A stretch of 64,000 bases of DNA from an uncultured Bacteroidota bacterium. GTDB lineage: Bacteria; Bacteroidota; Bacteroidia; Chitinophagales; Chitinophagaceae. Shown here piece by piece: positions 3,256-57,954 of the stretch; positions within the stretch are counted from its first letter, which is position 1, and every line of letters starts with the position of its first letter. A model generated the notes under the pieces. It ran no database searches and was not told the DNA's origin. It worked only from the letters and a program-made list of their open reading frames with translations. The position numbers and the translations under genes are program-made. The stretch is from positions 1-64,000 of the forward strand of contig CAIJXU010000093.1 of assembly GCA_903824725.1 (NCBI GenBank), written 5' to 3'.

Positions 3256-3261
3256 ATATTT

Positions 3262-4707: not shown

Positions 4708-4709
4708 TA

Positions 4710-9086: not shown

Positions 9087-9171
9087 ATGAGATAATTGAA
9101 AGTAAATTGGTTTGATTGAATAATGTTAAATATAGGAACGAATTAATGGAGTTAAATAATAAATGAGGGCA

Positions 9172-17096: not shown

Positions 17097-17101
17097 TTGA
17101 A

Positions 17102-18604
17102 ATGAGTAAACAGAATAATAAAAAAATAATACAGGAAGCCAACCTAGAAACATCACATCAAATCACTAGAAAATATTTTTTTAAAGAATGTTTTTCTGGA
17201 ATAGGTGCTATGGCACTAGGTTCGATGGTAGGTGGTTGTGATTGGCTAGGCAGTAAGGATAGTTTTGGAAATTTTACCAATACCAATCCATTAATGGCAC
17301 ATGCCCCTCATTTTATTGGCAAAGCCAAATCGGTTATTTATTTACACATGGCGGGCGCCCCTTCTCAACTTGAATTATTTGACTATAAACCTGAATTATT
17401 AAAATTAGATGGGCAGGATTGTCCTCAAAGTTTATTGGATGGAAAAAAATTCGCTTTCATAAGAGGCGTTCCTAAAATGTTAGGCCCACAAGCTGTCTTT
17501 AAACAAAGAGGCCAAAGTGGGGCTTGGATTTCTGATAACCTTCCTCATCTATCAACCGTAGCAGATGAAATAAGTTTTTTAAAAGCAGTACAAACCGATC
17601 AATTCAACCATGGTCCTGCGCAATTATTAATGCATACCGGTTCGCCAAGATTAGGCAGACCTAGTATTGGCGCTTGGGTTACTTATGGACTTGGAACTGA
17701 GAACAGCAATCTGCCAGGTTTTGTGGTACTTACTTCGGGAGGAAATAATCCGGACGCTGGAAAAAGTGTTTGGGGAAATGGTTTTTTACCATCAGTATAC
17801 CAAGGTGTTCAATGTCGTAGTGAAGGAGATCCTGTTTTATTTTTAAAAGATCCAGCGGGTATTGATCGTGATTTACGAAAAGCATCTATTGATGCCATCA
17901 ATGAAGCGAATCAATTAACTTATAATGAATTTAAGGATCCTGAAATTGTTGCAAGAATGGCGCAATATGAAATGGCATTTAAAATGCAAATTTCAGTTCC
18001 TGATGTCATGAATATTAATGATGAGCCTGCTTATATTCATGAAATGTATGGTACTCATCCAGGAAAAGCAAGTTTCGCCAATAATGTTTTGTTGGCTCGA
18101 AAATTAGTTGAAAAAGGAGTTCGATTTGTACAATTATTCGATTGGGGTTGGGATAGTCACGGAACAGATGTAAGTAACGCAGTAGATATAGGACTTGTAA
18201 ATAAATGCCGTACCATTGATAAACCAATTACTGCTTTATTACTTGATTTAAAACAAAGAGGTTTGTTGGATGAAACCTTAGTCGTATGGGGCGGTGAATT
18301 TGGTCGCACACCAATGCAAGAAAATAGAGATGGAAAAACATTACCATTCAAAGGGCGCGATCATCATACTGAAGCATTTACCACATGGATGGCAGGAGGT
18401 GGAATTAAACAAGGAAGTAGCTTTGGCGAAACGGATGAGATTGGATATAGTGCTATTAGTGGTAAGGTAACTGCTTATGATATGCAAGCCACTATTTTAA
18501 ATCAGTTGGGATTTGATCATGAAAAATTAGTTTACCCATTCCAAGGAAGATCTTTTAGATTAACTGATGTGCACGGAAGAGTCATTAATGAAATTGTAGC
18601 ATAA
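17102..18604 (+). CDS. DUF1501 family protein, putative lipoprotein (cassette B)
   Basis: AGAPSQLELFDYKP, WGGEFGRTPMQENRDG, GRDHHTEAFTTWMAGGGIKQG. N-terminus TRKYFFKECFSGIGAMALGSMVGGC. Confidence 0.9.
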   Translation: MSKQNNKKIIQEANLETSHQITRKYFFKECFSGIGAMALGSMVGGCDWLGSKDSFGNFTNTNPLMAHAPHFIGKAKSVIYLHMAGAPSQLELFDYKPELLKLDGQDCPQSLLDGKKFAFIRGVPKMLGPQAVFKQRGQSGAWISDNLPHLSTVADEISFLKAVQTDQFNHGPAQLLMHTGSPRLGRPSIGAWVTYGLGTENSNLPGFVVLTSGGNNPDAGKSVWGNGFLPSVYQGVQCRSEGDPVLFLKDPAGIDRDLRKASIDAINEANQLTYNEFKDPEIVARMAQYEMAFKMQISVPDVMNINDEPAYIHEMYGTHPGKASFANNVLLARKLVEKGVRFVQLFDWGWDSHGTDVSNAVDIGLVNKCRTIDKPITALLLDLKQRGLLDETLVVWGGEFGRTPMQENRDGKTLPFKGRDHHTEAFTTWMAGGGIKQGSSFGETDEIGYSAISGKVTAYDMQATILNQLGFDHEKLVYPFQGRSFRLTDVHGRVINEIVA

Positions 18605-18618
18605 TAAATTAAAACAAC

Positions 18619-20022
18619 TTGGAAAGTATTATCAAATTAATAGGTCACTTTCATCCTTTATGGGTGCATTTTCCCATTGGTATATTATTATTTGCTATTT
18701 TGATACATGGATTATCAAGTTGGGAAAAATATAAAAAATTAGAAGCTGCCTTACCCTTCACTTATTTAATAGGTGGGCTAAGTGCTGTATTTTCTTGCAT
18801 AACAGGTTACGCCTTATCTAATAACGGCGATTATGATGCCAATTTAATTTTTAAACATCAATGGTTGGCTATTAGTGTTGCTGTCATTTCAATTTTAGGA
18901 TATGTATTCATTAAAATACATAAAGCCGTTTATTTAAAATGGACCGCGTTTGTTTTGCTTATATTAATTTTTTTAACTGGACATTATGGAGGCACTTTAA
19001 CCCACGGCGAAGGTTATTTAACCAAGGGCGTTTTTGTTGAGGACAAACAAGTCATAAAAAATAAACCCCTCATTCCAAATGTGCAAGAAGCCGTTTTATT
19101 TAATGATATCATTCAACCCATATTAGAAGAAAAATGTTATGGCTGTCATTCCAGTATCAAAAAAAAGGGGAAATTAAGATTAGATGCGCAAGAATGGATT
19201 TTAAAAGGGGGTGAAGATGGATTGGTGTTACACGCAGGCGATCCACTGAAAAGTCCATTGTATAAAAATATTTTATTAGACCCTGTGGATGAAAAGCACA
19301 TGCCTCCAAAAGGTAAGCCACAAGTGACGGAACAAGAAAGAAGGTTATTAGAATGGTGGATTAGTAGTGGGGCTTCCTTTAATAAAAAAGTAAAAGAGTT
19401 GTCACCGCCAAGCAATATGCAAAGTGTATTATTAGCAGTACAAAATAACAATGGTCCTAAAATTCAAATACAAGCGATACCTTCTGCTGAAATTGGACCT
19501 GCTGATCAAAAAGTCATTAATGGATTAAAAAAAATGGGTGTGACCATTGTGAATGTTGCATTAAACAGTAATTATATAAGCGCCAACTTTATTACGGTAC
19601 CCCATGCTAATGACACGATTAGTGATTTAATAAAAAAAATCAATGATAATGTAGTTTGGATAAAAATGCCAGGTATGATTTTTAATGACCCCTTAGTAAA
19701 TGTATTAGCAGATTGCAAGTCATTAACAAAATTAAGTATCGAAAACACAAACATCAGTGACAAGCAATTAGCTATTTTAAATGATTTACATGAATTACAA
19801 TATTTAAATATCGTCAATACAAAAATTTCTCTTAACGGATTAATGCAGCTCAATAATTTGAAAAAATTAAACCAGTTATATGTAGGTCAAACTAATATTA
19901 AGGAAACGGATTTAGCACGTATTAAAACAGTATTCCCTAATGCAACTGTGAATTTTGGAAATTATAATGTCGAAAAGCTCATCACTGATACTCAAATTTT
20001 AAAAGTGCCGCAAAAAAAGTAA
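18619..20022 (+). CDS. DUF2231 membrane / c-type cytochrome / LRR-like protein (cassette B), TTG start
   Basis: LIGHFHPLWVHFPIGILLF, CYGCHSSIKKKGKLRLD haem motif, HMPPKGKPQVTEQERRLLEWWI, C-terminal LRR-like repeats. Confidence 0.88.
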   Translation: MESIIKLIGHFHPLWVHFPIGILLFAILIHGLSSWEKYKKLEAALPFTYLIGGLSAVFSCITGYALSNNGDYDANLIFKHQWLAISVAVISILGYVFIKIHKAVYLKWTAFVLLILIFLTGHYGGTLTHGEGYLTKGVFVEDKQVIKNKPLIPNVQEAVLFNDIIQPILEEKCYGCHSSIKKKGKLRLDAQEWILKGGEDGLVLHAGDPLKSPLYKNILLDPVDEKHMPPKGKPQVTEQERRLLEWWISSGASFNKKVKELSPPSNMQSVLLAVQNNNGPKIQIQAIPSAEIGPADQKVINGLKKMGVTIVNVALNSNYISANFITVPHANDTISDLIKKINDNVVWIKMPGMIFNDPLVNVLADCKSLTKLSIENTNISDKQLAILNDLHELQYLNIVNTKISLNGLMQLNNLKKLNQLYVGQTNIKETDLARIKTVFPNATVNFGNYNVEKLITDTQILKVPQKK

Positions 20023-21037: not shown

Positions 21038-22093
21038 ATGCAAGTATTATTGGGCGTTATTTTTCATTTTATTGGAGGATTTGCTTCTGGTAGTTTTTAT
21101 ATGCCCTATAAAAAAGTAAAACAATGGAATTGGGAAAGTTACTGGATTATTGGAGGTTTATTTTCATGGCTTATCGTTCCCCCTCTTGCCGCTTATTTAA
21201 CCATACCTGGATTTGTAGAAATTATCAAAGCCACTCCTATTGATACCATAAAATACACATTATTCTTTGGCGTATTATGGGGATTTGGCGGATTAACTTA
21301 TGGGCTTGGTGTAAGGTATTTAGGAATGTCATTGGGTAATTCAGTGGTCTTAGGTTTTTGTTCTGCTTTTGGCGCCTTAGTCCCTTCTATCTATTATAAT
21401 TTTAATCCCACACAAGGAAAAACAACATTCAACGAATTAATAGGGACCACCTGGGGTCGTATTGTTTTAGTAGGCGTTTTGATATGCTTGTTGGGGATTT
21501 ATCTTTCTGGAAAAGCCGGGATGATGAAAGAAAAAGAAATGACGGAAATAGAAAAACAAAAATCCGTTGCAGAATTTAATTTAGTAAAAGGATTAGTCGT
21601 TGCTATTTTTTCAGGGATCATGAGTGCTTGTTTTAATTTTGGTATTGAAGCAGGAAAGCCAATGGCAGAAGCTGCTGTAGCGCATGGCTTGAATCCACTT
21701 TTTCAAAATAATGTGATCTATGTTATTTTATTATGGGGTGGCCTAGCTACTAATTTTATTTGGTGCTTTATATTAAATACAAAAAATAAATCCTTTGGCA
21801 ATTACACTAATAAAGAAACGCCTTTGTTAAAAAATTATTTATTGTCGGCACTAGCAGGTACTACTTGGTTTTTACAATTCTTTTTTTATGGCATGGGCGA
21901 AAGTAAATTAGGAAATGGAGCAAGTAGTTGGATTTTGCATATGGCTTTTATTATATTAGTAGCCAATATGTGGGGCATAGTATTAAAGGAATGGAAAGGC
22001 GTAAGTAAAAAAACAAAAGCAACCATCACATTGGGTATTGCCACCATCATATTATCTGTGTTGGTAGTGGGTTATGGCAATTCATTAAAATAA
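21038..22093 (+). CDS. rhaT: L-rhamnose/proton symporter RhaT
   Basis: HFIGGFASGSFYMPYKKVKQWNWESYWIIGGLFSWLIVPPLAA and about ten TM segments. First gene of a rhamnose operon. Confidence 0.93.
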   Translation: MQVLLGVIFHFIGGFASGSFYMPYKKVKQWNWESYWIIGGLFSWLIVPPLAAYLTIPGFVEIIKATPIDTIKYTLFFGVLWGFGGLTYGLGVRYLGMSLGNSVVLGFCSAFGALVPSIYYNFNPTQGKTTFNELIGTTWGRIVLVGVLICLLGIYLSGKAGMMKEKEMTEIEKQKSVAEFNLVKGLVVAIFSGIMSACFNFGIEAGKPMAEAAVAHGLNPLFQNNVIYVILLWGGLATNFIWCFILNTKNKSFGNYTNKETPLLKNYLLSALAGTTWFLQFFFYGMGESKLGNGASSWILHMAFIILVANMWGIVLKEWKGVSKKTKATITLGIATIILSVLVVGYGNSLK

Positions 22094-22126
22094 AAAATAA
22101 ATCAAACAATAGAAAAATCATTCATC

Positions 22127-24244
22127 ATGTCAGGAAACAAAACATTTAAGTTCGTAAGTTATTTATGGGAAGAAGCAAAAGCAAAAGCCTTAGCAGGTGA
22201 CGAAGTTGCATTATTGGTATACCGATCCAATTTATTAGGAGCCGATTTAAGATTAACCAATTATGGTGGTGGAAATACTTCTTGTAAAGTGGCTAGTATG
22301 GATCCACTTACTCAAAAACAAGTAGAAGTGATGTGGGTGAAGGGAAGTGGTGGCGACCTGGGAACAATGAAAAAAGAAGGCCTTGCTGCACTTTATTTGG
22401 ACCGCTTGCATGACTTGCAAAATATATACAAGGGACTTGCCTTTGAAGATGAAATTGTTGCTTTATACAACCATTGCATATTTGACTTTGACTCTAAAGC
22501 ACCTTCTATTGATACTGCATTACATGGATTACTTCCTTTCAAACATATTGACCACTTACATCCTGATGCCGCCATTGCAATTGCTGCAGCAAAGGATGGT
22601 GAAAAAATTACAAAGGAATTATTTAAAGGAACCATTGGATGGGTTCCTTGGCAAAGACCAGGCTTTGATTTAGGACTACAATTAAAAAAATGCCTCGAAG
22701 ACAATCCTGGTATTAGAGGTATCATGTTAGGTTCGCATGGTTTATTTACTTGGGGCGACACTGCATATGAAAGTTATATAAATACGTTGGAGGTCATCGA
22801 AATTTGTGCGCAATACCTTGAAGATAGTTACATCAAAAAAGGTGCCGCATTCAAAGGACAAAAAATAAATGCCTTGCCAAAGGAAGAAAGAATGACACAA
22901 GCGGCAGCATTGGCCCCCATTTTAAGAGGCTTTTGCTCGTCTGAAACAAAAATGATTGGACACTTCACCGACGATGATCGTGTTTTAGAATTTATTAATT
23001 CAACTGATTTAGATCGATTAGCGCCCATGGGTACAAGTTGTCCTGATCATTTTTTAAGAACTAAAATTGCACCACTTGTTTTAAATATCCCTGCGGATAT
23101 TGACATGAAAAACAGTGCCGACATAAAGCAAAAAATAGAACCTCTATTTATTGCTTACCGAAAAATGTATTCGGATTATTATCAACAATGTAAAAGAGAC
23201 AATAGCCCTGCGCTACGAGATGCAAACCCAGTGGTCATATTGTTTCCAGGAGTGGGCATGTTTACTTTTGCAAAAGACAAACAAACAGCAAGGGTTTCCT
23301 CTGAATTTTATACCAATGCAATTAATGTAATGAAAGGGGCTGAAGCCATTTCAAGTTATACTTCACTTCCTTTACAAGAGGCTTTCAATATTGAATATTG
23401 GTTATTAGAGGAAGCAAAATTACAAAGAATGCCAAAAGCAAAATCCTTAAAAGGAAAAATTGCATTGGTGACTGGAAGTGGCGGTGGTATTGGAAAAGCA
23501 ATCGCTCATAAATTTGCAAGCGAAGGTGCTTGTGTTATTTTATCTGATAATAATTTAGAAAGATTGCAATTAGCAAAGGATGAATTTATTGCTGCTTATG
23601 GAAAAGATGTCGTTGCTGCTGATATACTTGATGTAACTGATGTAGCTAGTATTAAAAAAACAATGCAAACAGCCTCTTTACAATTTGGTGGATTAGATAT
23701 CATTGTAAATAATGCAGGTTTATCTATTTCAAAAACAATGGAAGATCATACTGAACAAGATTGGGACTTACTATATGATGTATTGGTGAAAGGTCAATTT
23801 TTAGTAACACAAAGTGCTATTGATATGATGCGCAAGCAGGCCGTGGGGGGAGATATATTAAATATAGTAAGTAAAAATGCATTGGTGAGTGGCCCTAATA
23901 ATGCAGGATATGGCTCGGCCAAAGCAGCACAACTTCATTTAAGTAGATTGAATGCAGCCGAACTAGGTAAGGATAAAATTAGAGTGAATGTGGTGAATCC
24001 AGATGCGGTCATTGCCGGAAGTAATATATGGAGTAGTGGATGGGCCGAGGGTCGTGCAAAAGCATATGGTATTAGTATTGAAGCCTTACCTGAATATTAT
24101 GCAAGTAGGACTTTATTAAATGAAATCATTTTACCAACAGATATTGCAAATGCTTGTTTTGCTTATGTGGGTGGCTTGTTAAATAAAACAACAGGAAATG
24201 TAATCAATGTAGATGGTGGTATCGCCAATTCATTTGTTAGATAA
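22127..24244 (+). CDS. Bifunctional rhamnulose-1-phosphate aldolase / short-chain dehydrogenase (RhaEW-like)
   Basis: Class II aldolase N-terminus (NYGGGNTSCKV, MLGSHGLFTWGDT) fused to an SDR domain (ALVTGSGGGIGKAIA, YGSAKAA). Confidence 0.93.
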   Translation: MSGNKTFKFVSYLWEEAKAKALAGDEVALLVYRSNLLGADLRLTNYGGGNTSCKVASMDPLTQKQVEVMWVKGSGGDLGTMKKEGLAALYLDRLHDLQNIYKGLAFEDEIVALYNHCIFDFDSKAPSIDTALHGLLPFKHIDHLHPDAAIAIAAAKDGEKITKELFKGTIGWVPWQRPGFDLGLQLKKCLEDNPGIRGIMLGSHGLFTWGDTAYESYINTLEVIEICAQYLEDSYIKKGAAFKGQKINALPKEERMTQAAALAPILRGFCSSETKMIGHFTDDDRVLEFINSTDLDRLAPMGTSCPDHFLRTKIAPLVLNIPADIDMKNSADIKQKIEPLFIAYRKMYSDYYQQCKRDNSPALRDANPVVILFPGVGMFTFAKDKQTARVSSEFYTNAINVMKGAEAISSYTSLPLQEAFNIEYWLLEEAKLQRMPKAKSLKGKIALVTGSGGGIGKAIAHKFASEGACVILSDNNLERLQLAKDEFIAAYGKDVVAADILDVTDVASIKKTMQTASLQFGGLDIIVNNAGLSISKTMEDHTEQDWDLLYDVLVKGQFLVTQSAIDMMRKQAVGGDILNIVSKNALVSGPNNAGYGSAKAAQLHLSRLNAAELGKDKIRVNVVNPDAVIAGSNIWSSGWAEGRAKAYGISIEALPEYYASRTLLNEIILPTDIANACFAYVGGLLNKTTGNVINVDGGIANSFVR

Positions 24245-24254
24245 ATAATGCTTT

Positions 24255-24569
24255 ATGCAACAGTTGGCATTTGAAATGAAATTAATGAAAGGCTATGAAG
24301 CGGAGTACCAAAAAAGGCATACTGCTATTTGGCCCGAATTAACTGCATTACTAAAGTCCCATGGCGTGAGTGAATATTATATTTACTTAAATGAGCAAAG
24401 TTTAAGTTTATTTGGAATCATGAAAGTGGAGGACCCTATTCAATTGGATGCATTACCTCATCACCCCATTATGAAAAAGTGGTGGGCGTATATGAAAGAC
24501 ATTATGGAAACCAATTCAGATTATTCTCCCTTATCTATTTCCTTAAAGAATGTTTTTTACATGCCTTAA
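24255..24569 (+). CDS. rhaM: L-rhamnose mutarotase
   Basis: 104 aa: MQQLAFEMKLMKGYEAEYQKRHTAIWPELTALLKSHGVSEYYIYL. Inside the rhamnose operon. Confidence 0.92.
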   Translation: MQQLAFEMKLMKGYEAEYQKRHTAIWPELTALLKSHGVSEYYIYLNEQSLSLFGIMKVEDPIQLDALPHHPIMKKWWAYMKDIMETNSDYSPLSISLKNVFYMP

Positions 24570-24580
24570 TCAATTAATTT

Positions 24581-25852
24581 ATGAGAATTAACAAAGCAAC
24601 TATTGACCAACATAATGAGGCCCATTTAAAAACGCATCAGCAAAAGTTGGCTTATATAAGTGGGCAGTTAAGTGAGGTGGAGGCGGTTATTCAAAAATTA
24701 ATGGATTTTAATGTAGCCATTCCTAGTTGGGCATTAGGTACAGGAGGTACTAGGTTTGCAAGATTTTCAGGAGCAGGCGAACCCGCCACCTTACAAGATA
24801 AAATGGAAGATGTAGGTTTATTACATGCACTTAATAAATCAAGTGGTGCCATATCACTTCATATTCCTTGGGACATCCCAGATGATTACAAATCAATACA
24901 AAAATTAGCAGCAGATTTAGATTTAAAATTTGATGCTGTGAATTCAAATACTTTTCAGGATCAAAAGGGCCAATTACAAAGTTATAAATTTGGATCCCTT
25001 CAGCATACGAATAAAGCAGTACGACAACAAGCGATTCAACATAATATAGAAGTGATACAACACGGAACTGCATTAGGGTCAAAGGCACTCACCGTATGGT
25101 TAAGTGATGGGAGTTGTTTTCCAGGTCAACTTAATTTTAGAAAAGCTTTTCAAAATACACTCGAAGGTTTACAGGAAATTTATGCTGCCTTACCGTCGGA
25201 TTGGAAAATATTTATTGAATATAAAGCCTTTGAGCCTAATTTTTATTCTACGACTGTAGGAGATTGGGGTCAATCTTTATTATATGCAAATAAGTTGGGC
25301 CCTCAAGCATTCACCTTAGTGGATCTTGGTCATCATTTACCTAATGCCAATATTGAACAAATTGTGGCTTTATTATTAATGGAAAAAAAATTAGCAGGAT
25401 TCCATTTTAATGATAGTAAATATGGCGATGACGATTTAACAGTAGGAAGTATAAAGCCATACCAGTTATTTTTAATTTTTAATGAATTAGTAGAGGGCAT
25501 GGATGCGAGGGGAATGAATCATGCAAAGGATTTAGGATGGATGATTGATGCAAGTCATAATGTAAAAGACCCCTTAGAGGATTTAATACAATCCGTTGAA
25601 GCCATTATGATTTCCTATGCACAAGCATTATTAGTGGATCGAAATAAATTAAATGAGGCCCAAGAAAATAATGATGTGGTTGCTGCACAAGAAATTTTAC
25701 AAAATAGGTTTAGAACCGATATCAGGGCCTTAGTAGCGGAAGCCAGACTAAGAAGCAATGGTGCTTTAGATCCGCTTTCATTTTACAGAACACAACAAAT
25801 CAGAAGTCAATTAATCAAACAAAGAGGTAATACCATCGCAACAGGATTATAA
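24581..25852 (+). CDS. rhaI: L-rhamnose isomerase (RhaI type)
   Basis: PSWALGTGGTRFARFSGAGEPATLQDKMEDVGLLHALNKSSGAISLHIPWD, AGFHFNDSKYGDDDLTVGSI. Operon context. Confidence 0.9.
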   Translation: MRINKATIDQHNEAHLKTHQQKLAYISGQLSEVEAVIQKLMDFNVAIPSWALGTGGTRFARFSGAGEPATLQDKMEDVGLLHALNKSSGAISLHIPWDIPDDYKSIQKLAADLDLKFDAVNSNTFQDQKGQLQSYKFGSLQHTNKAVRQQAIQHNIEVIQHGTALGSKALTVWLSDGSCFPGQLNFRKAFQNTLEGLQEIYAALPSDWKIFIEYKAFEPNFYSTTVGDWGQSLLYANKLGPQAFTLVDLGHHLPNANIEQIVALLLMEKKLAGFHFNDSKYGDDDLTVGSIKPYQLFLIFNELVEGMDARGMNHAKDLGWMIDASHNVKDPLEDLIQSVEAIMISYAQALLVDRNKLNEAQENNDVVAAQEILQNRFRTDIRALVAEARLRSNGALDPLSFYRTQQIRSQLIKQRGNTIATGL

Positions 25853-27171
25853 TGAATGCAACTCCCGTCATACTTATATTTGATATTGGAAAAACCAATA
25901 AAAAATTATTGCTCTTTAATGAATCCTATGATTTGGTATATGAATCTATTGAACAGTTTGCCGAAATAAAGGATGAAGACGGATTTGAGGGTGAGGATAT
26001 TATCATGTTAAAGCAGTGGATGTATAAGTCATTTCAGGAAATTATGGACAATGCCTCCTTTGAAATTAAAGCCATTAATTTTTCTGGTTATGGTGCCAGT
26101 TTTGTTTTTTTAGATCATGAAGACAATGAAATCACGCCATTGTATAATTACCTCAAACCTTTAGATAAGGAAATTAGTGATTCTTTTTATACTCAATATG
26201 GTGGCGAAATGCATATGGCAAAGGAGACTGCCTCGCCTATTTTAGGAAATTTAAATTCAGGGATGCAGTTGTACCGAATAAAAAAGCAAGTTCCTGCTAA
26301 ATTTGATTCCATTAATACAGCTTTACACTTACCTCAATACTTAAGTTTTTTATTTACCAAACAATGCTATTCGGATATTACAAGTATTGGTTGTCATACC
26401 CATTTATGGAATTTTAATAAAATGGAATACCATGACTGGGTTGCAAAGGAAGGGATATCAGATAAACTAGCACCCATTAAAAAAAGTGATGATGTAGTAG
26501 ATATTTCTTTTCCATTATATCATACCCAACTTAAAGTGGGCATCGGATTACACGATAGTTCGGCAGCATTGGTGCCCTATATTCATTCTTTTCAGGAGCC
26601 CTATATTTTAATTTCAACTGGTACATGGAGTATTAGCTTAAACCCCTTTAATCAAAGTACTCTTACCGAACAAGAATTGCAACAAGATTGTTTATGTTAT
26701 ATTTCCTACACTGGCCAACCCATTAAGGCTTCCCGCTTATTTGCTGGCAATCAACATGAGCAAGAAATAAAAAAATTAGCGCAGCAATTTAATACGGCAT
26801 TAGATTATTATAAAACCGTTGACTTTAATATTGCTATTTATAAAAACATTATAGAGTCTGGTGACCTTGCTTCTATCGAAACTTATGAAGAAGCGTATCA
26901 TCTTATGATACATCATATTATTCAACAACAAGTGATTAGCTCCAATTTGGTATTGCAAAATGCAGATGTCCGTCAAATATTTGTAGATGGTGGGTTTAGT
27001 AATAACCCCGTTTTTATGCATTATTTAGCTGCCGCTTATCCTGATAAAAAAGTTTTTGCAGCAACCCTTTCACAAGCTTCAAGTTTAGGAGCGGCCATGG
27101 CTATTCATGCCCATTGGAATTCAAAAAGCATTCCACAACAACTGATTCAATTAAAACAATATTTGTTTTAA
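25852..27171 (+). CDS. FGGY-family carbohydrate kinase, probable rhamnulokinase
   Basis: N-terminal DIGKTNKKLLLF phosphate loop; C-terminal IFVDGGFSNNPVFMHYLAAAYPDKKVFAATLSQASSLGAAMAIH. 1-nt overlap with rhaI. Confidence 0.88.
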   Translation: MNATPVILIFDIGKTNKKLLLFNESYDLVYESIEQFAEIKDEDGFEGEDIIMLKQWMYKSFQEIMDNASFEIKAINFSGYGASFVFLDHEDNEITPLYNYLKPLDKEISDSFYTQYGGEMHMAKETASPILGNLNSGMQLYRIKKQVPAKFDSINTALHLPQYLSFLFTKQCYSDITSIGCHTHLWNFNKMEYHDWVAKEGISDKLAPIKKSDDVVDISFPLYHTQLKVGIGLHDSSAALVPYIHSFQEPYILISTGTWSISLNPFNQSTLTEQELQQDCLCYISYTGQPIKASRLFAGNQHEQEIKKLAQQFNTALDYYKTVDFNIAIYKNIIESGDLASIETYEEAYHLMIHHIIQQQVISSNLVLQNADVRQIFVDGGFSNNPVFMHYLAAAYPDKKVFAATLSQASSLGAAMAIHAHWNSKSIPQQLIQLKQYLF

Positions 27172-29498: not shown

Positions 29499-30191
29499 AT
29501 GAAAAAATTACAAGTGATTTTAATGTTCTTATGCATCTTTGGCGCCAATGCTATTATGGCACAAACTAATTCAGTATCAGTTCCAAACACAACAGGGAAA
29601 GGATGGAAAAATTTATTCGGAAATAATTTATCTAATGCTATTTATGATAAAGCTATTTGGAAAGATTCAAGCGGTGTGATTACTGCAAGTAAAGATGATG
29701 CTATTTGGAGCTTTGAAGAATATGACGATTTTGTTTTGGATTTAGATTTTCAAAATGCTGATGGAACCAATAGTGGCGTGATTGTTCATGCTACAGATAT
29801 TGTAGAATGGATTCCTCATTCAGTTGAAATTCAAATTGCAGATGATTATTCAAAACAATGGAGTAAGGCAGATCCTAGTTGGCAGTGTGCGGCTATTTTT
29901 GGACATAAGCCTGCTACTAATAAATCACTAAAACCAGCAGGCGAGTGGAATCACTATACCATTACTTGTAAAGGAAAAATGATTTCAATTGTCTTAAATG
30001 GCACATTGGTAAACGAATGTAATATGAACGATTACACTTCAGCTAAAAAAAATCCAGATGGTACCAATATTCCATCTTGGTTAAGCAACCCAATGGCAAC
30101 GCTTGAACTACGCGGCCACATTGGCTTACAAGGAAAACATGCAGGCGCTCCTATTTATTTTAAAAATGTAAAAGTTTTAAGACTACATTAA
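29499..30191 (+). CDS. DUF1080 (3-keto-disaccharide hydrolase family) protein, exported
   Basis: Signal peptide; WKNLFGNNLSNAIYD, EYDDFVLDLDFQNADGTNSGVIVHA, GEWNHYTITCKGKMISIVLNGTLVNECN. Confidence 0.85.
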   Translation: MKKLQVILMFLCIFGANAIMAQTNSVSVPNTTGKGWKNLFGNNLSNAIYDKAIWKDSSGVITASKDDAIWSFEEYDDFVLDLDFQNADGTNSGVIVHATDIVEWIPHSVEIQIADDYSKQWSKADPSWQCAAIFGHKPATNKSLKPAGEWNHYTITCKGKMISIVLNGTLVNECNMNDYTSAKKNPDGTNIPSWLSNPMATLELRGHIGLQGKHAGAPIYFKNVKVLRLH

Positions 30192-30241
30192 TCCATTAGA
30201 AATAAAATATTTGTCGTACCCAATATCAAAATAAGTTTAAA

Positions 30242-31507
30242 ATGAAAATTGAAAAAAATTCAAGGCGAAAATTTATCCAAAATACCGCAACCATCATTGC
30301 AGGGATTTCGATTATTCCTAGACATGTTTTAGGAAGAGGCTTTATTGCTCCAAGTGACCAACTCACCAAAGGTATCATTGGATTAGGTGGAATGGGTCGC
30401 GGACATATTGGGTATGCAGGTACGCGTGTTGTTGCCATTTGTGATGTTGATAAAAATCATTTATTGAGTGCCGAAAAATTAGTGGGTGGTGGTGTAAAAA
30501 CCTTTCACAATCACCATGATTTAATTGCACTTCCCGAAGTTGATATTGTTCATATTGCTACCCCACCTCACTGGCATGGAATGATGGCCGTGGATGCGGC
30601 TAAGGGAGGAAAAGATATTTGGTGTGAAAAACCAATGACTCGAACAATTGGTGAAGGAAAAAGAGTAGTGGAAGCGGTTAAAGAATATAAGCGCATGTTC
30701 CGATTAAATACTTGGTTCCGCTTTGAAGAAAATTTTTACGGAATGAATACCACTGTTAAACCAATAAAAAAATTAGTAGAATCTGGTTTATTAGGTTGGC
30801 CTTTAACGGTAACGGTAAGTAAAACCACAGGATTTGATTGGAAATTTTATTGGATAGGAAAAACAAAATTAGAAGAACAGCCTATACCTGAGGAATTAGA
30901 CTACGACAGATGGTTAGGCCCAGCGCCTTACAAGCCATATAATGCACATAGAGTGCATGGCACTTTTAGAGGCTATTGGGATTATGATGGAGGGGGACTA
31001 GGCGATATGGGACAACACTATCTTGATCCCATTCAATATTTTTTAGGTAAGGATGAAACAAGTCCAATTAAAGTAGAAGTAGATGCGGAACAACAACATC
31101 CAGATGCTTGTGGTACCTTCCGAAAAATCACTTACACTTATGCAGATGGTTGTAAAATAATTTTAGATGGCGAAGCCACTGATCCGAATGCAGCTTATAT
31201 AGAAGGTCCTAAAGGAAAATTATTTGCTGGGTTTAAATCAGATATTCCGAATTTAAAGGAAAAAATTGCAATGATGCCTGATCCGGCACCACAGGTAACT
31301 AATTTTTTAGATTCTGTAAAATACCGAACGCCATTTGCTTTAAATGAATCCAATGGATTCAGATCATGTACATTGATCAATATAGGAAAAGCAGCTTTAC
31401 AGCTTGGTAGAACATTGCATTTTGATCCAGACACTCAGGAATTCATCAATGACACCGAAGCTAATTTTTTAATCAACCCTCCTATGCGTGGGCCTTGGAC
31501 TTTTTAA
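30242..31507 (+). CDS. Gfo/Idh/MocA family oxidoreductase with Tat signal
   Basis: NSRRKFIQNTATIIAGISII Tat-like signal, GIIGLGGMGRGHIGYAGTRVVAICDVD Rossmann motif, DIWCEKPMTRTIGEGK. Confidence 0.93.
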   Translation: MKIEKNSRRKFIQNTATIIAGISIIPRHVLGRGFIAPSDQLTKGIIGLGGMGRGHIGYAGTRVVAICDVDKNHLLSAEKLVGGGVKTFHNHHDLIALPEVDIVHIATPPHWHGMMAVDAAKGGKDIWCEKPMTRTIGEGKRVVEAVKEYKRMFRLNTWFRFEENFYGMNTTVKPIKKLVESGLLGWPLTVTVSKTTGFDWKFYWIGKTKLEEQPIPEELDYDRWLGPAPYKPYNAHRVHGTFRGYWDYDGGGLGDMGQHYLDPIQYFLGKDETSPIKVEVDAEQQHPDACGTFRKITYTYADGCKIILDGEATDPNAAYIEGPKGKLFAGFKSDIPNLKEKIAMMPDPAPQVTNFLDSVKYRTPFALNESNGFRSCTLINIGKAALQLGRTLHFDPDTQEFINDTEANFLINPPMRGPWTF

Positions 31508-31541
31508 TGATCACTTATTTCAAAATGTAGTAACTATAATT

Positions 31542-33542
31542 ATGAAAAAATATTTTTGCCTAATTGCTTTAAGTCTTTGTATTAGTTTTAGTACACAAGC
31601 ACAAAATGGAAATAATAAAGTAAATGAAACCTTGCAAGTATTCCCATATAAACATGCAAATGAAATTATCGATGCACTAACTAATATGGGGACTTGGAAA
31701 ACAGCAGAATGGAAAGTTTTATTTAAAATGCTAGAGGACGATTCTTTAAAATTAAAAGCCACCTACGCTTTAAATGCTTATGTTAATAGTGCTTCATTAG
31801 TAGAAGCTCAAAAAATTAAAACCATTAAGCTCCTTAAGAAGCAGTTAAAAAAAGCAACTACAAATTATGCAACTACCTTTATACATACCGAAATTGGATT
31901 ATTAAGTTCGGCAAGTCAAGTAAAAAGCAGTTTAGAAAATTTGCCGGCAATTACAAAAGCAGACACTAAAACAGTAACTGCTGAAAAAAATACAACACAA
32001 CAACTTCTACAACTCCAAGATCAAATGCAAGTAGTTTTAGTAAGTGGAAATGAAATACAAAAAAAGAATATTTTATTTCAAGCTTCTAAAATACCTAGTC
32101 TAGGCGCTTTCATTTTTGTAGGACAATTTTTAGAGGATGCGGCTGTACAAAAGGACGCTGCTGTTATTGTAAGCAGATTGGCTATGGCCAACCCGTCCAT
32201 AAAAGGTCCCATTGTAAGACAAGCGCTTGAAAAAGCATTACCAATAATAAAAGGGGAAGATAGTGCTGTATTGGTTTCGATGCTAACTGCACACTTAAAA
32301 AAAATGCCTTATGATTATGGATTTATTTCTCTTTTCAATGGTAAAGATTTAACAGGATGGAAAGGATTGGTTGGTAATCCAATTGCTCGTTCAAAAATGA
32401 GTGCTGCAGAATTACAAACAGCACAATCAAAAGCAAACGAAACTATTAAAAATGATTGGGTCATTAAAGATGGTTTATTAATTTTTACTGGACATGGTGA
32501 TAATTTATGTACTGAAAAAATGTATGGTGATATAGAGATGTTTGTAGACTGGAAAATTACTGAAAAGGGAGATGCCGGTATTTATTTAAGAGGTACCCCG
32601 CAGGTACAAATTTGGGATACAAGCCGTCGCGAAGTGGGCGCCCAAGTGGGTTCAGGTGGTTTGTATAATAATCAAAAAAATGTAAGTAAACCATTGGTGG
32701 TGGCAGATAATAAAATTGGAGAGTGGAATACTTTTCATATCATCATGAACGGTGATAAAGTGACTGTCTATTTAAATGGAATTTTAGTGACAGATAATAT
32801 TGGGCTTGAAAATTATTGGGACCGTAAACTTCCACTTTTCACCAAGGATCAAATTGAATTACAAGCCCATGGTACTTATGTTGCCTATCGTAATATTTAT
32901 GTAAGAGAATTGCCCAATGAAGCAAGCACTACAACCGTATTAACTGAGACTGAGAAAAAAGAAGGATTTACAAGCTTATTTGATGGAACACAAATGAACG
33001 ATTGGGTTGGAAACAAATCGGGCTACTTATTAAAAGATGGCGTGATTGAAGTAAACCCTGAAGCCAAGGGAGGCGGTAATTTATATACTAAGGAAGAATA
33101 CAGTGATTTTATTTACCGATTTGAATTTCAATTGACACCCGGTGCCAATAACGGTATTGGTATTCATGCACCCTTAGAAGGAGATGCAGCTTATGTGGGT
33201 ATGGAAATACAAGTGTTAGATAATGAGGCGGACATATATAAAAATTTAAAACCTTATCAATACCATGGTTCAGTATATGGTATTGTGCCAGCTAAAAGAG
33301 GTTTTTTAAAACCATTAGGCGAATGGAATGAGGAGGAGATAATGATGCAAGGATCTAAAATTAAAGTAACACTGAATGGAACTGTGATTACTGAAGCAGA
33401 TTTAAAAGAGGCTACTAAAAATGGTACCATGGACCACAATGAACACCCAGGTTTAAAAAATACCACAGGTCATATTGGATTTTTAGGACACGGCGATGTC
33501 CTTCGATTTAAAAATATGCGCATCAAAAAACTGAGTAAGTAA
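31542..33542 (+). CDS. Exported protein with two DUF1080 domains
   Basis: Two DUF1080 starts (FISLFNGKDLTGWKGL, FTSLFDGTQMNDWVGN) and two GEWN(T/E) motifs. Start moved to MKKYFCLIALSLC at 31542. Confidence 0.88.
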   Translation: MKKYFCLIALSLCISFSTQAQNGNNKVNETLQVFPYKHANEIIDALTNMGTWKTAEWKVLFKMLEDDSLKLKATYALNAYVNSASLVEAQKIKTIKLLKKQLKKATTNYATTFIHTEIGLLSSASQVKSSLENLPAITKADTKTVTAEKNTTQQLLQLQDQMQVVLVSGNEIQKKNILFQASKIPSLGAFIFVGQFLEDAAVQKDAAVIVSRLAMANPSIKGPIVRQALEKALPIIKGEDSAVLVSMLTAHLKKMPYDYGFISLFNGKDLTGWKGLVGNPIARSKMSAAELQTAQSKANETIKNDWVIKDGLLIFTGHGDNLCTEKMYGDIEMFVDWKITEKGDAGIYLRGTPQVQIWDTSRREVGAQVGSGGLYNNQKNVSKPLVVADNKIGEWNTFHIIMNGDKVTVYLNGILVTDNIGLENYWDRKLPLFTKDQIELQAHGTYVAYRNIYVRELPNEASTTTVLTETEKKEGFTSLFDGTQMNDWVGNKSGYLLKDGVIEVNPEAKGGGNLYTKEEYSDFIYRFEFQLTPGANNGIGIHAPLEGDAAYVGMEIQVLDNEADIYKNLKPYQYHGSVYGIVPAKRGFLKPLGEWNEEEIMMQGSKIKVTLNGTVITEADLKEATKNGTMDHNEHPGLKNTTGHIGFLGHGDVLRFKNMRIKKLSK

Positions 33543-33554
33543 AACGATAACTGA

Positions 33555-34649
33555 TTGAATAATTTTTTTGAAAATACGATCAAAAAAAATGAGCCCGAAA
33601 AACCTTCTCGCAAAAAGCCCATTTTCCCTATTAACCAAAGCTTACGCAGTTATTTAGTTCGTTATGGTCGGGAAGTAAAACTTCCAGTAAGTTATAGTGA
33701 TTTACAACGCTACACTTATTCAGTCCCTTTAAAAAATAAGCAAGGGAAAGACACTTCTTGGGAAAAGTTATCCTTTGATATGAAGGAATGGGAGCACTTA
33801 AGAGAAAGCCTGGTTCGAATTTATGCCATTCTCAAAACCGAAGGAGACATTAGTTATATTGATCATTTAGATGTTTCTAGAATTGATTTTTGTTATTTTG
33901 GTAATAGTCAACCATTTAGAATTAGGATTATAAATAAGTTAAATGACAACTACGATCATTATTATATAAAACAAGCAGATGCTAGCAGGGTATATGGTTT
34001 AGAGCTTGAGCATTTGTTATCCCCCAACCGAATTACCTATTTCACACATAATGAAACCTTAATTGAAGAGCATATCCCAGGCATTCCAGGTGATATTTTC
34101 ATTACAGATCATTTACAAGATCCAAACACCAATGTGATTAGATTGGCAAAAGAATTTGTAAAGTTTAACGAGCGTTGTTTTGTACAATTACTAGGTGATA
34201 TGCGCTCCTATAATTATGTAGTGAATATTATTCCTGATATTGAGGATTTTCAATACCGAATCAGAGCCATCGATTTTGATCAACAATCCTATGAAGGTAG
34301 AAAAAGTTTATACCTGCCTCAATTTTATAAAGAAAATAAAGATTTCGTCGATTTGGTGATTAAAAACTTAGATGCAAAATCAATCGCACAATACCAAGTC
34401 GAAGAAAGGACTATGATGACTTTTAGATTGGTTCTTGCAAAATACCAAGTGAAAGAGTTGTTTGATATCATGAGTAAGGATAAGATTTCTCAACCGGAAA
34501 AAATTGAACAATTAAAAAAAGAATTAACAGCGCATTTCAAGGAAGCCTCCACTTACGATAAAGCCAAAACAATGGGAGAAGTCTTAAAACGACACTTAAA
34601 ACAAACACTACAAAAGAATTTATTACTTGTTCCTAAATCCAAACATTAG
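33555..34649 (+). CDS. Conserved hypothetical protein, possible divergent protein-kinase-like fold; TTG start
   Basis: YYIKQAD, YGLELEHLL, LIEEHIPGIPGDIFI, LGDMRSYNYVVN and IRAIDFDQQS occur in the order of kinase VAIK, alphaC-Glu, hinge, catalytic loop and DFG motifs. Confidence 0.7.
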   Translation: MNNFFENTIKKNEPEKPSRKKPIFPINQSLRSYLVRYGREVKLPVSYSDLQRYTYSVPLKNKQGKDTSWEKLSFDMKEWEHLRESLVRIYAILKTEGDISYIDHLDVSRIDFCYFGNSQPFRIRIINKLNDNYDHYYIKQADASRVYGLELEHLLSPNRITYFTHNETLIEEHIPGIPGDIFITDHLQDPNTNVIRLAKEFVKFNERCFVQLLGDMRSYNYVVNIIPDIEDFQYRIRAIDFDQQSYEGRKSLYLPQFYKENKDFVDLVIKNLDAKSIAQYQVEERTMMTFRLVLAKYQVKELFDIMSKDKISQPEKIEQLKKELTAHFKEASTYDKAKTMGEVLKRHLKQTLQKNLLLVPKSKH

Positions 34650-36570: not shown

Positions 36571-37251
36571 TTATTTAACCAAAAGATGAGGGGCAATCTG
36601 TTTTTGCCAAATTGCATACCCTTTTTCATTCATATGAAGGTGGTCGGCAATGAAAATGTCTTTCATCACTGTACCATCTGATTGCAACATTGGAGTATGA
36701 ATGTCAATAAATTGAGTATTAGATTGCTTTGCTAAAAAAGCCGAAATCAGCTCATTGGCTTGTACCATTTTAGCCTCCAAATGCCATCTTAAGATGCTGG
36801 GCTTTAAGGATATAAATACAATATTGGTCTTCTGACCTAATTGACTACGTATGATATTAAATAAAATCAAAAATCGCTCATATACTATTGCTGGCGTTAT
36901 GGTATTATTACTAGCGATGTCATTTTCACCACAATAAATAATTACTTGCTTGGGCTTGTATTTTAAAATGGTTTCATTCGCATATTGAATAACATCTGGT
37001 AAAGTAGAGCCACCAAAGCCTCGATTAATGATGGCATAGCCTGGAAAATATTGATTGATATCCTTCCACTTAGCAAAAGAGGAGCTGCCCACAAAAACAA
37101 TTTTTCCTTGCAAAGGAGATACCATCGAATCTGATTTTGCAAATGCAATAATTTCTTTTTCAAATGGATTTACTTGTGCCCATAAACCCATTGAAAAATG
37201 AACTAATAAAAAAACCACTAGCCCCCATTTTTTAAGGAAATTATTTTTCAT
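36571..37251 (-). CDS. SGNH/GDSL hydrolase, exported
   Basis: IVFVGSSSFAKW (block I), GFGGS (block II), YCGENDI (block III), DHLHMNEKGYAIW (block V). Confidence 0.9.
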   Translation of the reverse strand: MKNNFLKKWGLVVFLLVHFSMGLWAQVNPFEKEIIAFAKSDSMVSPLQGKIVFVGSSSFAKWKDINQYFPGYAIINRGFGGSTLPDVIQYANETILKYKPKQVIIYCGENDIASNNTITPAIVYERFLILFNIIRSQLGQKTNIVFISLKPSILRWHLEAKMVQANELISAFLAKQSNTQFIDIHTPMLQSDGTVMKDIFIADHLHMNEKGYAIWQKQIAPHLLVK

Positions 37252-39679
37252 TCGTTTTTATTGTTTCCATTTTACCGTTCATTAAAACCTGAGCAGTGGT
37301 GTTGGTGGTTGATTTTATTTTTACATTGGTCACTTGTCCTTTAATCCATGTCATATCAATTTCATAATTACCTCTTGCCTTCAAACCCTTTACTGAACCG
37401 GATTGCCAAGCTTTTGGAATAGCAGGTAATAACTCAATATAGTCGGCATTAGATTGTACTAGCATCTCTGCTACGGCTGCCGCCCCTCCGAAATTTCCAT
37501 CAATTTGAAATGGAGGATGTGCATCTAATAAATTAGGATAAGTGCCGCCCATATTGGTATAATTTTCCTTCGTTTCATCTGGTGGAACATATTTTAGTAA
37601 TTCTCGATACATTTTATAAGCATGTTCCCCGTCTTTTAATCTTGCCCATAAATTGATGCGCCAACCTTTTGACCAACCTGTCGTTTCATCTCCTTTAATT
37701 TCTAAAGTCTTTTTAGCTGCCGCTGCAATCAATGGGGTATTTTGAACAGTAACATGTGTACCAGGATATAATCCATATAAATGACTTTGATGTCTATGTT
37801 GCGGTTCCACATCTTGCCAATCATAATACCATTCTTGTAAATTACCTGCTTTACCAACTTGATAAGGATGCAAATTATTAAGCGCATTATTTATACTTGA
37901 TACAAACGCAGTATCATTTTTTAATATTTTTTGTGCAGCAATGATATCTAAAAATAATTCACGAATCATAGCAAGATCGGCAGTGCCGCCAAATAAAGTA
38001 TTACCTCTAAACCCCGTATTGGTGATAAAACTATTCTCGGGAGAGGTGGATGGAGATGTAATATATTGGCCAGCTGAATCCTTAATTAACCAAGCCAGGC
38101 AAAATTCAGCAGCACCTCGCATAAGGGGATATGCTTTTTGTTTTAAGAAAGTAGCATCTTGGGTAAATAAGTAATGTTCCCATAAATGCGCCGACGCCCA
38201 AGTGCCCCCCATGGGCCAGTTCGCCCAGCTAGGATCACCATCACCAAAATTACCTACTGGATTAGACATCGCCCATATATCAGAATTATGATGCGAAACC
38301 CATCCTGGCATATTGTAAAATGTTTTTGCAGTAATTTTTCCAGTGGTCGATAAATTATTTAAAAATTGCAAAAACGGCTGATGCATTTCAGATAAATTGG
38401 TGTTTTCGGCTAACCAATAATTTTCTTCAGCATTAATATTCATGGTATAATTACTTGACCAAGGTGGCTGCAAGTAGGAATTCCATAAGCCTTGTAAATT
38501 AGCAGGGACGGCTGTTGTACGAGAACTGCTAATTAATAAATAACGACCGTATTGAAAATATAAGGTTTCTAAATAAGGATCTGATTCCCCTTTAGCATAT
38601 CGTTTTAATCTTTCATTGGTGGGTAAATTGGAAGCTTGCGGACCGTCTAATTTTAAGGCTACTCTATTAAAATAATTTTGATAATCTTTGACATGTCTAT
38701 TTTTAATTTCATCCCATCCAATATAAATGGCTTTTGTTAATTGTGATTGCGCGATGGTATTTTGATTTAAACCTTGAGTTGCAGGGTCTTTATCAAAACC
38801 ATTAAAACTAGTTGCTATTGAAATATAAATAGTTGCTTCGCTTGCATTTGCTAAAGTTAAAGTAGAGTCGGTATTGGTAATTTTTCCCGAACTGGTTTTG
38901 ATTTGAATATTCGCTGCAAATTTTGTTCCTCGTTTTTTATCAAATAAAATTGAATTACGCTTTTTTTGAACATAACTTGGGTCTGCCTTGACAGGTGCTA
39001 CCCCATTGGCTTGTAATAAATTATTAGTAGCGGATGTCGTATGTAATAATAAAGATTCAAAGCGAATGGTAAAACCCAATGCCCCTGCTTTTTTACTTTT
39101 TAAATGAATGGCAAATATTTTATCGGGGTTAGAAACTAGGTATTCTCTTTCGATGGTATTTGAATTAGATTCGGTTTTCACTTTTGCAATGGCTTGATTC
39201 AAATCCAATTCGCGATAATAATCACTGATATATGGATCGTCATTAAAATCAAGATACAAAGTGCCTAAAGGCGCATAGGATTCGGAAAATTTACCTTGTA
39301 ATTTTTTTATGAGTTCGCCCGCTTTTTTATAATTTTTTTCGGCAAGCGCTTTACGAACTGCGGGTAAATTTTTATAAGCCTGCGGGTTCATGTTGGCATT
39401 CACTGGCTCTCCTGACCAAAGTGTTAAATCGTTTAAATAAATTTTATCGGTCGAGATACCACCAAAAACGGTAGCCCCTTGTTGTCCATTACCTAAGACC
39501 AAGGATTCTTCAAAATATTGCGCTGGCGCATCATACCAAAGCTTCAGTGGTGGCTGTATTGGCGCTTCAACAATGACTGTTTTGGGTATTGGTTTTTTGA
39601 CCGACTTAGTAACTTTTTTTTGAGCCTGCATTGGCATGGCAAAAAGAATTAGAAAAAAAATAAGTATATTTTTGGACAT
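37241..39679 (-). CDS. GH95-family alpha-L-fucosidase/galactosidase-like glycoside hydrolase
   Basis: LWYDAPAQYFEESLVLGNGQQGATVFGGISTDKIYLNDLTLWSG, NINAEENYWLAENTNL, PSTSPEN, PFQIDGNFGGAAAVAEMLVQS. Confidence 0.92.
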   Translation of the reverse strand: MSKNILIFFLILFAMPMQAQKKVTKSVKKPIPKTVIVEAPIQPPLKLWYDAPAQYFEESLVLGNGQQGATVFGGISTDKIYLNDLTLWSGEPVNANMNPQAYKNLPAVRKALAEKNYKKAGELIKKLQGKFSESYAPLGTLYLDFNDDPYISDYYRELDLNQAIAKVKTESNSNTIEREYLVSNPDKIFAIHLKSKKAGALGFTIRFESLLLHTTSATNNLLQANGVAPVKADPSYVQKKRNSILFDKKRGTKFAANIQIKTSSGKITNTDSTLTLANASEATIYISIATSFNGFDKDPATQGLNQNTIAQSQLTKAIYIGWDEIKNRHVKDYQNYFNRVALKLDGPQASNLPTNERLKRYAKGESDPYLETLYFQYGRYLLISSSRTTAVPANLQGLWNSYLQPPWSSNYTMNINAEENYWLAENTNLSEMHQPFLQFLNNLSTTGKITAKTFYNMPGWVSHHNSDIWAMSNPVGNFGDGDPSWANWPMGGTWASAHLWEHYLFTQDATFLKQKAYPLMRGAAEFCLAWLIKDSAGQYITSPSTSPENSFITNTGFRGNTLFGGTADLAMIRELFLDIIAAQKILKNDTAFVSSINNALNNLHPYQVGKAGNLQEWYYDWQDVEPQHRHQSHLYGLYPGTHVTVQNTPLIAAAAKKTLEIKGDETTGWSKGWRINLWARLKDGEHAYKMYRELLKYVPPDETKENYTNMGGTYPNLLDAHPPFQIDGNFGGAAAVAEMLVQSNADYIELLPAIPKAWQSGSVKGLKARGNYEIDMTWIKGQVTNVKIKSTTNTTAQVLMNGKMETIKTNEK

Positions 39680-52500: not shown

Positions 52501-52899
52501 ATAAATATGTCAAGTAACAATAAGGCTACTAAGGTGAATGTAAATAATTGGAAAGAATATCGTGCCGCTTTTTTAAATGGAGAAGAGGGATGGTTAGAAT
52601 TTTCTAATTTCAATTTGGATGATATTAAATCGATTGAATTGTCATATGGTATTCCTGAAACCTTAGACAAAGGATATATCATTACACTTTATCAGGATGA
52701 GCCAAATGAGAATAAGTCTAATAAAATTGCTGAGCTGAAATTAGCTAATGCACAAAGCTCCACATTAAGTAAAGCTGTGTTGAATTTACAAAATGTAAAA
52801 CAAGGGCAGCATAAATTATTTTTGAAAATACAAAGAGTGGATAAATTAGAAAAAAACCGCTTAGCAGTTATTTCAATGAGATTGATTCAAAAAAAATAA
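49507..52899 (+). CDS. Multidomain exported protein: ThuA-like, PQQ-dependent sugar dehydrogenase, PKD, cytochrome c, C-terminal CBM-like domain
   Basis: ThuA (VLVFSKTAAFRHSSIE, GGGYVGIHAATDCEYTWPWYGKLSGAYF), GDH propeller (AILPNLDILIVQRKGEVMFY, GLIGVTADPNYSKNNFVYLFYA), PKD (GSTDADGDALTYIWSFG), CKSCHK haem site. Confidence 0.92.
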   Translation: MNPMKTVLFALMLALTMQVNAQSRVLVFSKTAAFRHSSIEVAKLALLKIGSENNIKVDTTESTAEFTEEGLKKYNAVVFLSTTGDVLNNYEQAAFERYIQAGGGYVGIHAATDCEYTWPWYGKLSGAYFKSHPSQQKAKLIINDNTHPSTAHLPAIWERFDEWYNFKTAPGSEVKVLISIDEKSYEGGSNGISHPMAWYHDYDGGRAFYTELGHTDESYSDPLYLKHLLGGIKYAIGNNVKLNYSKVKSNLVPEEDRFTKNILAGGMFDEPTEMAILPNLDILIVQRKGEVMFYNHINKKVTQVAKLDVYHKSNAKGVNAEEGLIGVTADPNYSKNNFVYLFYATKDTAANRLSRFVLKNGKFDKSSEKKIIDVGTTRDICCHTAGSLSFAPDGTLFISTGDNTTPFDQPNSKYVLQGYGPIDNREGFEQYDGRRGSSNTNDLRGKVLRIKVNPDATYTIPEGNLFKPGTPKTRPEIYAMGTRNPYRISIDRKNGFLYWGDVGPDAGDDKMSEKGPRGYDELNQARKAGYFGYPLFIGGNYPYRQFDYATGAIGDFFDPKKPMNLSKNNTGLVELPPVSPAFIWYPYANSPEFPEVGSGGRNAMAGPIYYPEFYPKETRYPAYFNGKLLFYEWIRGWLKLVSMDEAGNYQQMEPFMPNTKFNSEIDIEVGPDGRYYVLEYGSGWFSKNPDAALSRIDYNGGNRAPKASIHVNKLNGSIPFTIQADAIGSTDADGDALTYIWSFGNQIKKTKTNATPFTFNKAGEYAVSVAVQDAKGAITKSEVIKIYAGNESPAVEIKLTGNDHFYYPGAPIPYMVNIKDKEDGSTEKGGIDNKSIYVKVDYLSGPDKAQVVGHQVMTALMEGKNLVATLDCKSCHKEAEKSIGPSFAMISDKYKNDLKNKTYLSNKIIKGGSGVWGAVAMAAHPNLKQDELDLIIDWILSVNKKKEASLPSKGNIIASAEDMGPGNLMQITASYTDKGGIGIKPLSASNSITLRSSLINMSSNNKATKVNVNNWKEYRAAFLNGEEGWLEFSNFNLDDIKSIELSYGIPETLDKGYIITLYQDEPNENKSNKIAELKLANAQSSTLSKAVLNLQNVKQGQHKLFLKIQRVDKLEKNRLAVISMRLIQKK

Positions 52900-52902
52900 A
52901 TT

Positions 52903-57791: not shown

Positions 57792-57954
57792 AGGATCGGT
57801 TTAGGTGTGAATATTGATACTTCAATTTACTAAATAATACTTAAACAACGAAGCGCTATTACTCAAAATGGTTTTGCCTATTAAATTTTGATGCTTTCTA
57901 ATTAATGGTTAATTTGCTGTAAGCTTGTTTGCTATTATTTTGATTCATTTTCAT

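Follow-up and report, generated by a model that had tools for sequence, protein, structure and literature searches.

Do the three neighbouring genes at positions 29499 to 33542 of an uncultured Chitinophagaceae contig encode one route for the cleavage of glycosides outside the cytoplasm, and which of them belong to it? The window analyzed here is the whole stretch of 64,000 nucleotides at positions 1 to 64,000 of contig CAIJXU010000093.1 (GenBank assembly GCA_903824725.1); it comes from a 2.2-Mb Bacteroidota assembly whose near relatives are freshwater Chitinophagaceae. The locus encodes a small protein with a single DUF1080 domain, a Gfo/Idh/MocA oxidoreductase (Gfo) and a protein with a helical HEAT-like part followed by two DUF1080 domains, D1 and D2 (HEAT-DUF1080). 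The original prediction, made from the letters of the DNA, read all three as one oxidise-then-eliminate route. We report that the conserved unit is made of two genes, Gfo and HEAT-DUF1080, and not of three, and that the two stay adjacent in a large part of the phylum Bacteroidota. With a probability of roughly 0.62, this pair is an extracytoplasmic module for the redox-neutral oxidation, elimination, hydration and re-reduction of glycosides, in which the same Gfo enzyme would reuse its nicotinamide adenine dinucleotide (NAD).

Conservation of the gene pair

A 14-member Gfo profile was used to collect 80 genome loci, 79 of which were usable; loci are cited below by our own numbers. The HEAT-DUF1080 gene lies directly 3′ of the Gfo gene on the same strand in 77 of these 79 loci, at a distance ranging from an overlap of 20 bases in the mechanical gene calls up to a gap of 185 bases, and every other neighbour family is present in 16 loci at most. 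The hosts are Chitinophaga, Flavihumibacter, Dyadobacter, Runella, Larkinella, Siphonobacter, Pedobacter, Mucilaginibacter and many metagenome-assembled genomes. Because the list of the top 80 loci favours close relatives, this rate of pairing should be read as an upper estimate. In a phylum-wide sample the Gfo ortholog was present in 9 of 198 genomes, and the pair is present in each of the six loci retrieved from additional families, two of these families belonging to other classes. In the family sample, L053 and L054 have the Gfo and HEAT-DUF1080 genes on separate contigs. A seeming 2807-residue fusion in L131 was rejected, as it spans a run of N and has no fusion partner.

Among the 79 loci, L067, L068 and L069, which are the nearest relatives, are the only ones with the small DUF1080 gene upstream of the pair. 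For this reason the three-gene operon was rejected and the gene is regarded as a local addition; as a unit of three genes the earlier route is wrong. The product of the small gene matches 3imm (E 5e-66) and 3s5q (E 3e-59) and keeps both the hydration histidine and the glutamate of the PEYQ strand described below.

Beside the module in the Pedobacter (L135), Mucilaginibacter (L145) and G019 (L058) loci lie a Tat-type Gfo gene resembling BT2158 of Bacteroides thetaiotaomicron and another Gfo gene, an arrangement that links the module to the known pathway. The BT2158-like proteins reach 456-471 bits of the NF058561 model in L058 and L135, and in L145 the BT2158-like gene is split into two open reading frames (ORFs). 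Judged by sequence, the Gfo proteins of the module are a subfamily separate from BT2158, with which they coexist in such loci.

Export signals and the Gfo dehydrogenase

That the three genes are real, co-directional and provided with export signals was borne out, as all three ORFs are intact on the + strand. The small DUF1080 protein and the HEAT-DUF1080 protein each have an ordinary Sec-type signal peptide at the N terminus (...MAQ and ...QAQ), and the Gfo protein has a twin-arginine motif, SRRKF (SRRKFIQ), followed by a hydrophobic stretch. For the third gene ATG 31542 is the most likely start, in preference to the mechanical GTG 31488, as both its signal peptide and its orthologs begin at ATG 31542. 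A motif of SRRxF type is present in 79 of 79 Gfo orthologs, and a family-by-family profile search found TatC encoded in the host genome; export by the twin-arginine translocation (Tat) system is hence predicted from the sequence motif.

The Gfo protein has the Rossmann domain PF01408, the lysine of the EKP motif and the Asp-x3-His of the C-terminal domain that characterize Gfo/Idh/MocA enzymes, and Lys130, Asp255 and His259 (D255-x3-H259) are invariant in 40 aligned orthologs. Its structure model was matched best by Foldseek to glucoside-3-dehydrogenase AL3 (8tdf and 8tdh, one of them with trehalose bound), which was also placed first by a profile search, and the stretch WLGPAPYkPYN...FRGYWDY..G.LGDM..H is common to the orthologs and AL3. 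The protein is predicted to be a glycoside 3-dehydrogenase which also re-reduces the 3-keto product.

The HEAT-DUF1080 protein

The double-DUF1080 character of the third gene was recognised from the start, and its HEAT-type N-terminal part had gone unmentioned. Residues 1-254 are all-helical in the model of the protein, whose predicted local distance difference test (pLDDT) score is 84.8. This part covers about 240 residues in the window, and the corresponding 700 or so residues of relatives match HEAT repeats; the short form is common to one clade of 36 loci (support 0.95), and most others have about 720 residues. The three DUF1080 domains of the window score 109, 147 and 148 bits against PF06439, whose curated cut-off is 26.8. 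Foldseek matched the HEAT-DUF1080 model to 4jqt (the tandem DUF1080 protein BT3469, best match), 8v31, 8tda, 8rr2 and 9fbe, among which are the 3-keto-2-hydroxy-glucal hydratases AL2/BT2157 and the eliminase/hydratase of 8rr2/9fbe. Matches to clostridial neurotoxin, laminin and galectin domains were dismissed as generic lectin sandwiches with low template-modelling scores.

The histidine of the QDHGD motif is invariant in both domains (D1 74/74, D2 77/77; 151 of 151 together). Structure 9fbe, solved with 2-hydroxy-3-keto-glucal, has QDNGDD where 8rr2 has QDHGDD, and PMC13273386 reports deficient hydration for the B. thetaiotaomicron lyase carrying H275N; on this basis the histidine is almost certainly the equivalent of H275. 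The PEYQ strand has its glutamate in every D2 (77/77) and glutamine in its place in every D1 (74/74); D1 is otherwise strongly conserved and is therefore not decaying. D1 has been lost in at least four lineages (L086/L087, L102, L103, L108). D2 is kept almost everywhere, being absent in L145 alone among intact loci (L073 is cut by a contig end), where a separate DUF1080 gene lies just upstream of the module; D2 thus looks to be the indispensable domain. From sequence and model together the protein is predicted to be a 3-keto-glycoside eliminase/hydratase.

Proposed mechanism

The Gfo enzyme would fold in the cytoplasm with NAD bound, leave through the Tat system and oxidise a glycoside, as we infer, at C3. 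A DUF1080 domain, most likely D2 since both Glu and His are present there, would then beta-eliminate the aglycone or second sugar to give a 2-hydroxy-3-keto-glycal, to which D2 or D1 would add water to give the 3-keto sugar. The same Gfo, now carrying NADH, would reduce this to the ordinary sugar and close a redox-neutral cycle, and the HEAT part would probably hold the dehydrogenase or a larger substrate. The bonds cleaved by the exported pair are most likely those between two sugars or between a sugar and a plant compound.

The electron sink of an exported nicotinamide enzyme had been a worry of the original prediction, which is largely met by published chemistry. The pathway described in PMC13273386 finishes with the release of a 3-keto sugar and its reduction to the ordinary sugar; because of this step a bound NAD can cycle, and with a redox-neutral cycle the electron-sink problem does not arise. 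Cleavage by oxidation and elimination outside the cytoplasm is well supported as a class of chemistry, through the AL3-like and eliminase/hydratase-like folds of the models and the retained hydration histidine.

A more elaborate form of this mechanism, in which a HEAT solenoid carrying a D2 eliminase and a D1 hydratase would dock the NAD-cycling Gfo and hand on the 3-keto-glycal without release, as a self-contained system independent of polysaccharide utilisation loci (PUL), is an unlikely proposal at present. If true, it would act on a class of glycosides that ordinary glycosidases leave uncleaved.

Weighing of alternatives

Several observations weigh against the proposed module. The Gfo model is of moderate quality (pLDDT 74), and the protein reaches only 141 bits over about 60% of NF058561 (orthologs 158-162 bits), against a cut-off of 750 bits for the BT2158 equivalog, so that specificity for C3 is uncertain, other carbons also being oxidised by Gfo enzymes. 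The family glutamate is missing from D1, and the NHPDAKLG..NR loop of BT2157, AL2 and BT3469 is absent from D1, D2 and the small DUF1080 protein alike, an absence that hints at another substrate or another aglycone site. In the family sample four divergent Gfo orthologs (L056, L057, L059 and L060) have no adjoining DUF1080 partner: the first three have no HEAT-DUF1080 neighbour, and that of L060 is adjoined by a HEAT-only protein (8156-9607). The pair has no linked gene for a dedicated sugar isomerase or transporter. The HEAT-only protein of L060 itself gives the impression of a scaffold that stayed behind after loss of its DUF1080 domains.

Other explanations were also considered. The tandem could be a plain carbohydrate-binding or glucanase-like unit (DUF1080 is similar to glycoside hydrolase family GH16) and Gfo could independently oxidise or epimerise a free sugar, the pairing reflecting shared regulation. 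The lectin-like sandwich fold of the DUF1080 domains and the missing glutamate of D1 speak for it, as does a DUF1080 protein of Thermogutta reported as an endo-xanthanase/glucanase in PMC10881899; the histidine kept in every one of the 151 domains, the strict pairing with the Gfo gene across classes and the fact that, among structures with a named function, the closest are eliminase/hydratases and not glucanases make it improbable. A module acting on the envelope sugars of the cell itself or on a narrow signal molecule instead of nutrient glycosides, with the HEAT part as docking platform, would suit the absence of any constant glycosidase or uptake-system neighbour in the 79 loci and the large HEAT part retained in most lineages. 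Varied glycosidase genes do lie near several loci (GH67/GH43, GH30, GH127 and GH95-type), however, and there is no direct evidence for any envelope substrate, so we consider it more doubtful still.

The coupling of Gfo to nearby cytochromes, a speculation of the original prediction, would send electrons to the respiratory chain through the planctomycete-type cassettes and release 3-keto sugars. Three such cassettes are indeed within the window, and lactose 3-dehydrogenases of LacABC type work with DUF1080 proteins elsewhere (PMC9007349). Yet CxxCH is absent from both proteins and from every ortholog, ORFs with CxxCHG[PT] occur within 10 kb in just 4 of 80 loci, and the published pathways end by reducing the 3-keto sugar (PMC13273386). 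On the neighbouring genes and the absence of CxxCH the coupling was rejected, and it would be very surprising if it proved right.

The redox-neutral glycoside module thus remains the preferred reading. Neighbouring glycosidases were rejected as a guide to its substrate as they differ from locus to locus, and no substrate is named for that reason; the rhamnose operon and the GH95 gene near the module were likewise not used, not being common to relatives in general.

Features of the locus and its surroundings

Table 1. Positions in the window of the two core genes, the DUF1080 domains and the accessory gene
Feature	Position	Strand	Product and profile scores
Accessory gene, small secreted single-DUF1080 protein	29499..30191	+	230 aa, PF06439 109 bits
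Core gene 1, Gfo/Idh/MocA oxidoreductase with Tat signal	30242..31507	+	421 aa, PF01408 70 bits and PF19051 477 bits
Core gene 2, secreted protein with HEAT-like N-terminal part, D1 and D2	31542..33542	+	two PF06439, 282 bits
Domain D1 (PF06439) of core gene 2	32319..32906	+	
Domain D2 (PF06439) of core gene 2	32964..33527	+	

In the host genome 3 of about 8 DUF1080 loci adjoin a Gfo gene, where about 0.13 would be expected (rough Poisson calculation assuming about 1,900 genes), and by this rough estimate the adjacency is more than chance. Two further Gfo and DUF1080 clusters are present in the same genome (L061 4961-9909 and L062 507-8408), one with a GH2-type enzyme and the other with ThuA, two isomerase-fold genes and a PVC-type haem protein; the Gfo proteins of both are below the BT2158 cut-off. 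Scans for sigma-70 promoters and terminators gave no excess over shuffled sequences. The module is followed by a 364-residue protein (33555-34649) with no Pfam or NCBIfam match, and a + strand ORF of the same length also follows the module in L068 and L069. A GH95-type glycosidase and an adjoining SGNH esterase are encoded on the opposite strand (36571-39679), about 3-4 kb from the module.

Elsewhere in the window, an L-rhamnose catabolism cluster (21038-27171) has RhaT, an aldolase-SDR fusion, a 104-residue mutarotase-like protein, an isomerase-like TIM barrel and an FGGY kinase, and is followed by a major facilitator superfamily (MFS) transporter on the opposite strand. Three planctomycete-type PSCyt1/PSCyt2/PSD1 cassettes (907-6869, 14340-20022 and 57925-62570) occur in this Bacteroidota genome, two of them with DUF1501, and of their large proteins one has a CBM6-like insert and another a LamG-like domain. 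A fusion of ThuA, glucose/sorbosone dehydrogenase, PKD and cytochrome c is followed by a sulfatase (49507-54348), and in L051 a 43% identical homolog is the immediate upstream neighbour of the Gfo gene.

Significance

Glycoside cleavage by oxidation, elimination and hydration has been recognised only recently and chiefly in gut bacteria, as an alternative to ordinary hydrolysis. If the reading is true, Bacteroidota of fresh water and soil would also use it, in the form of a compact pair of genes conserved over the distances between classes. The class of chemistry is known; a module of HEAT, tandem DUF1080 and Gfo is not described in the portion of the open literature on DUF1080 and related terms that was accessible. 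Neither the scaffolded tandem architecture nor its conservation independent of PUL seems to have been described, and a tandem, scaffolded eliminase/hydratase appears not yet characterised as far as that literature shows. A direct test is possible with two defined proteins and a known catalytic histidine.

Comparison with known systems

The closest fold to the window Gfo is found in AL3 of Alistipes and BT2158 of B. thetaiotaomicron (8tdf, 8tdh; NF058561), likewise Tat-type Gfo/Idh/MocA proteins, with which it shares the EKP lysine, Asp-x3-His and the WLGPAPY..FRGYWD stretch. BT2158 is a periplasmic glycoside 3-dehydrogenase required for growth on trehalose, leucrose and palatinose (PMC11300592). 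Unlike BT2158, the window protein stays at 141 of the 750 bits, and it matches PF19051 over the full length (477 bits). BT2157/AL2 (3osd, 8tda, 8rr2, 9fbe, 8v31) has the same PF06439 fold with the Glu (as in D2), Gln, Asp, Tyr, Trp-Asn and hydration His; the window protein differs in having two domains behind a HEAT part, no NHPDAKLG..NR loop and Gln for Glu in D1. BT3469 (4jqt) also joins two DUF1080 domains in one protein, but its solved chain has no HEAT part and its C-terminal domain keeps the BT2157 loop, which D2 does not.

The Gfo model also matches the fold of 1h6d, the glucose-fructose oxidoreductase of Zymomonas. That enzyme is a Tat-exported Gfo with a tightly bound nicotinamide cycling between two substrates; it acts at sugar C1, uses NADP and is not known to have a DUF1080 partner.

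In the lactose route of Caulobacter, periplasmic 3-oxidation by LacABC is followed by a DUF1080 protein, and CCNA_01705 provides a genetic link of such a protein to a 3-dehydrogenase; the LacABC dehydrogenase is membrane-bound and three-component, whereas the window module has a soluble Gfo (PMC9007349). A Pfam scan of the window found no LacABC-type genes beside the module, and no genome-wide LacABC search was made. The OGE-HYD-Gfo glucoside route of Agrobacterium has the same 3-keto glycoside, beta-elimination, hydration and Gfo reduction, but its eliminase is Mn-dependent and its hydratase carries the annotation of a sugar phosphate isomerase, neither being DUF1080 (PMC10628242).

The layout of the BT2156-BT2160 operon (isomerase/epimerase, DUF1080 and two Gfo genes) is not matched by the window module, beside which there is one Gfo and no isomerase-family gene; L135, L058 and L145 resemble it in part. 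Because the Gfo fails the BT2158 cut-off and the DUF1080 domains do not have the loop common to the characterised enzymes, neither window protein is, on sequence, an equivalog of BT2158 or BT2157, and the pair is described as one which would work like that pathway.

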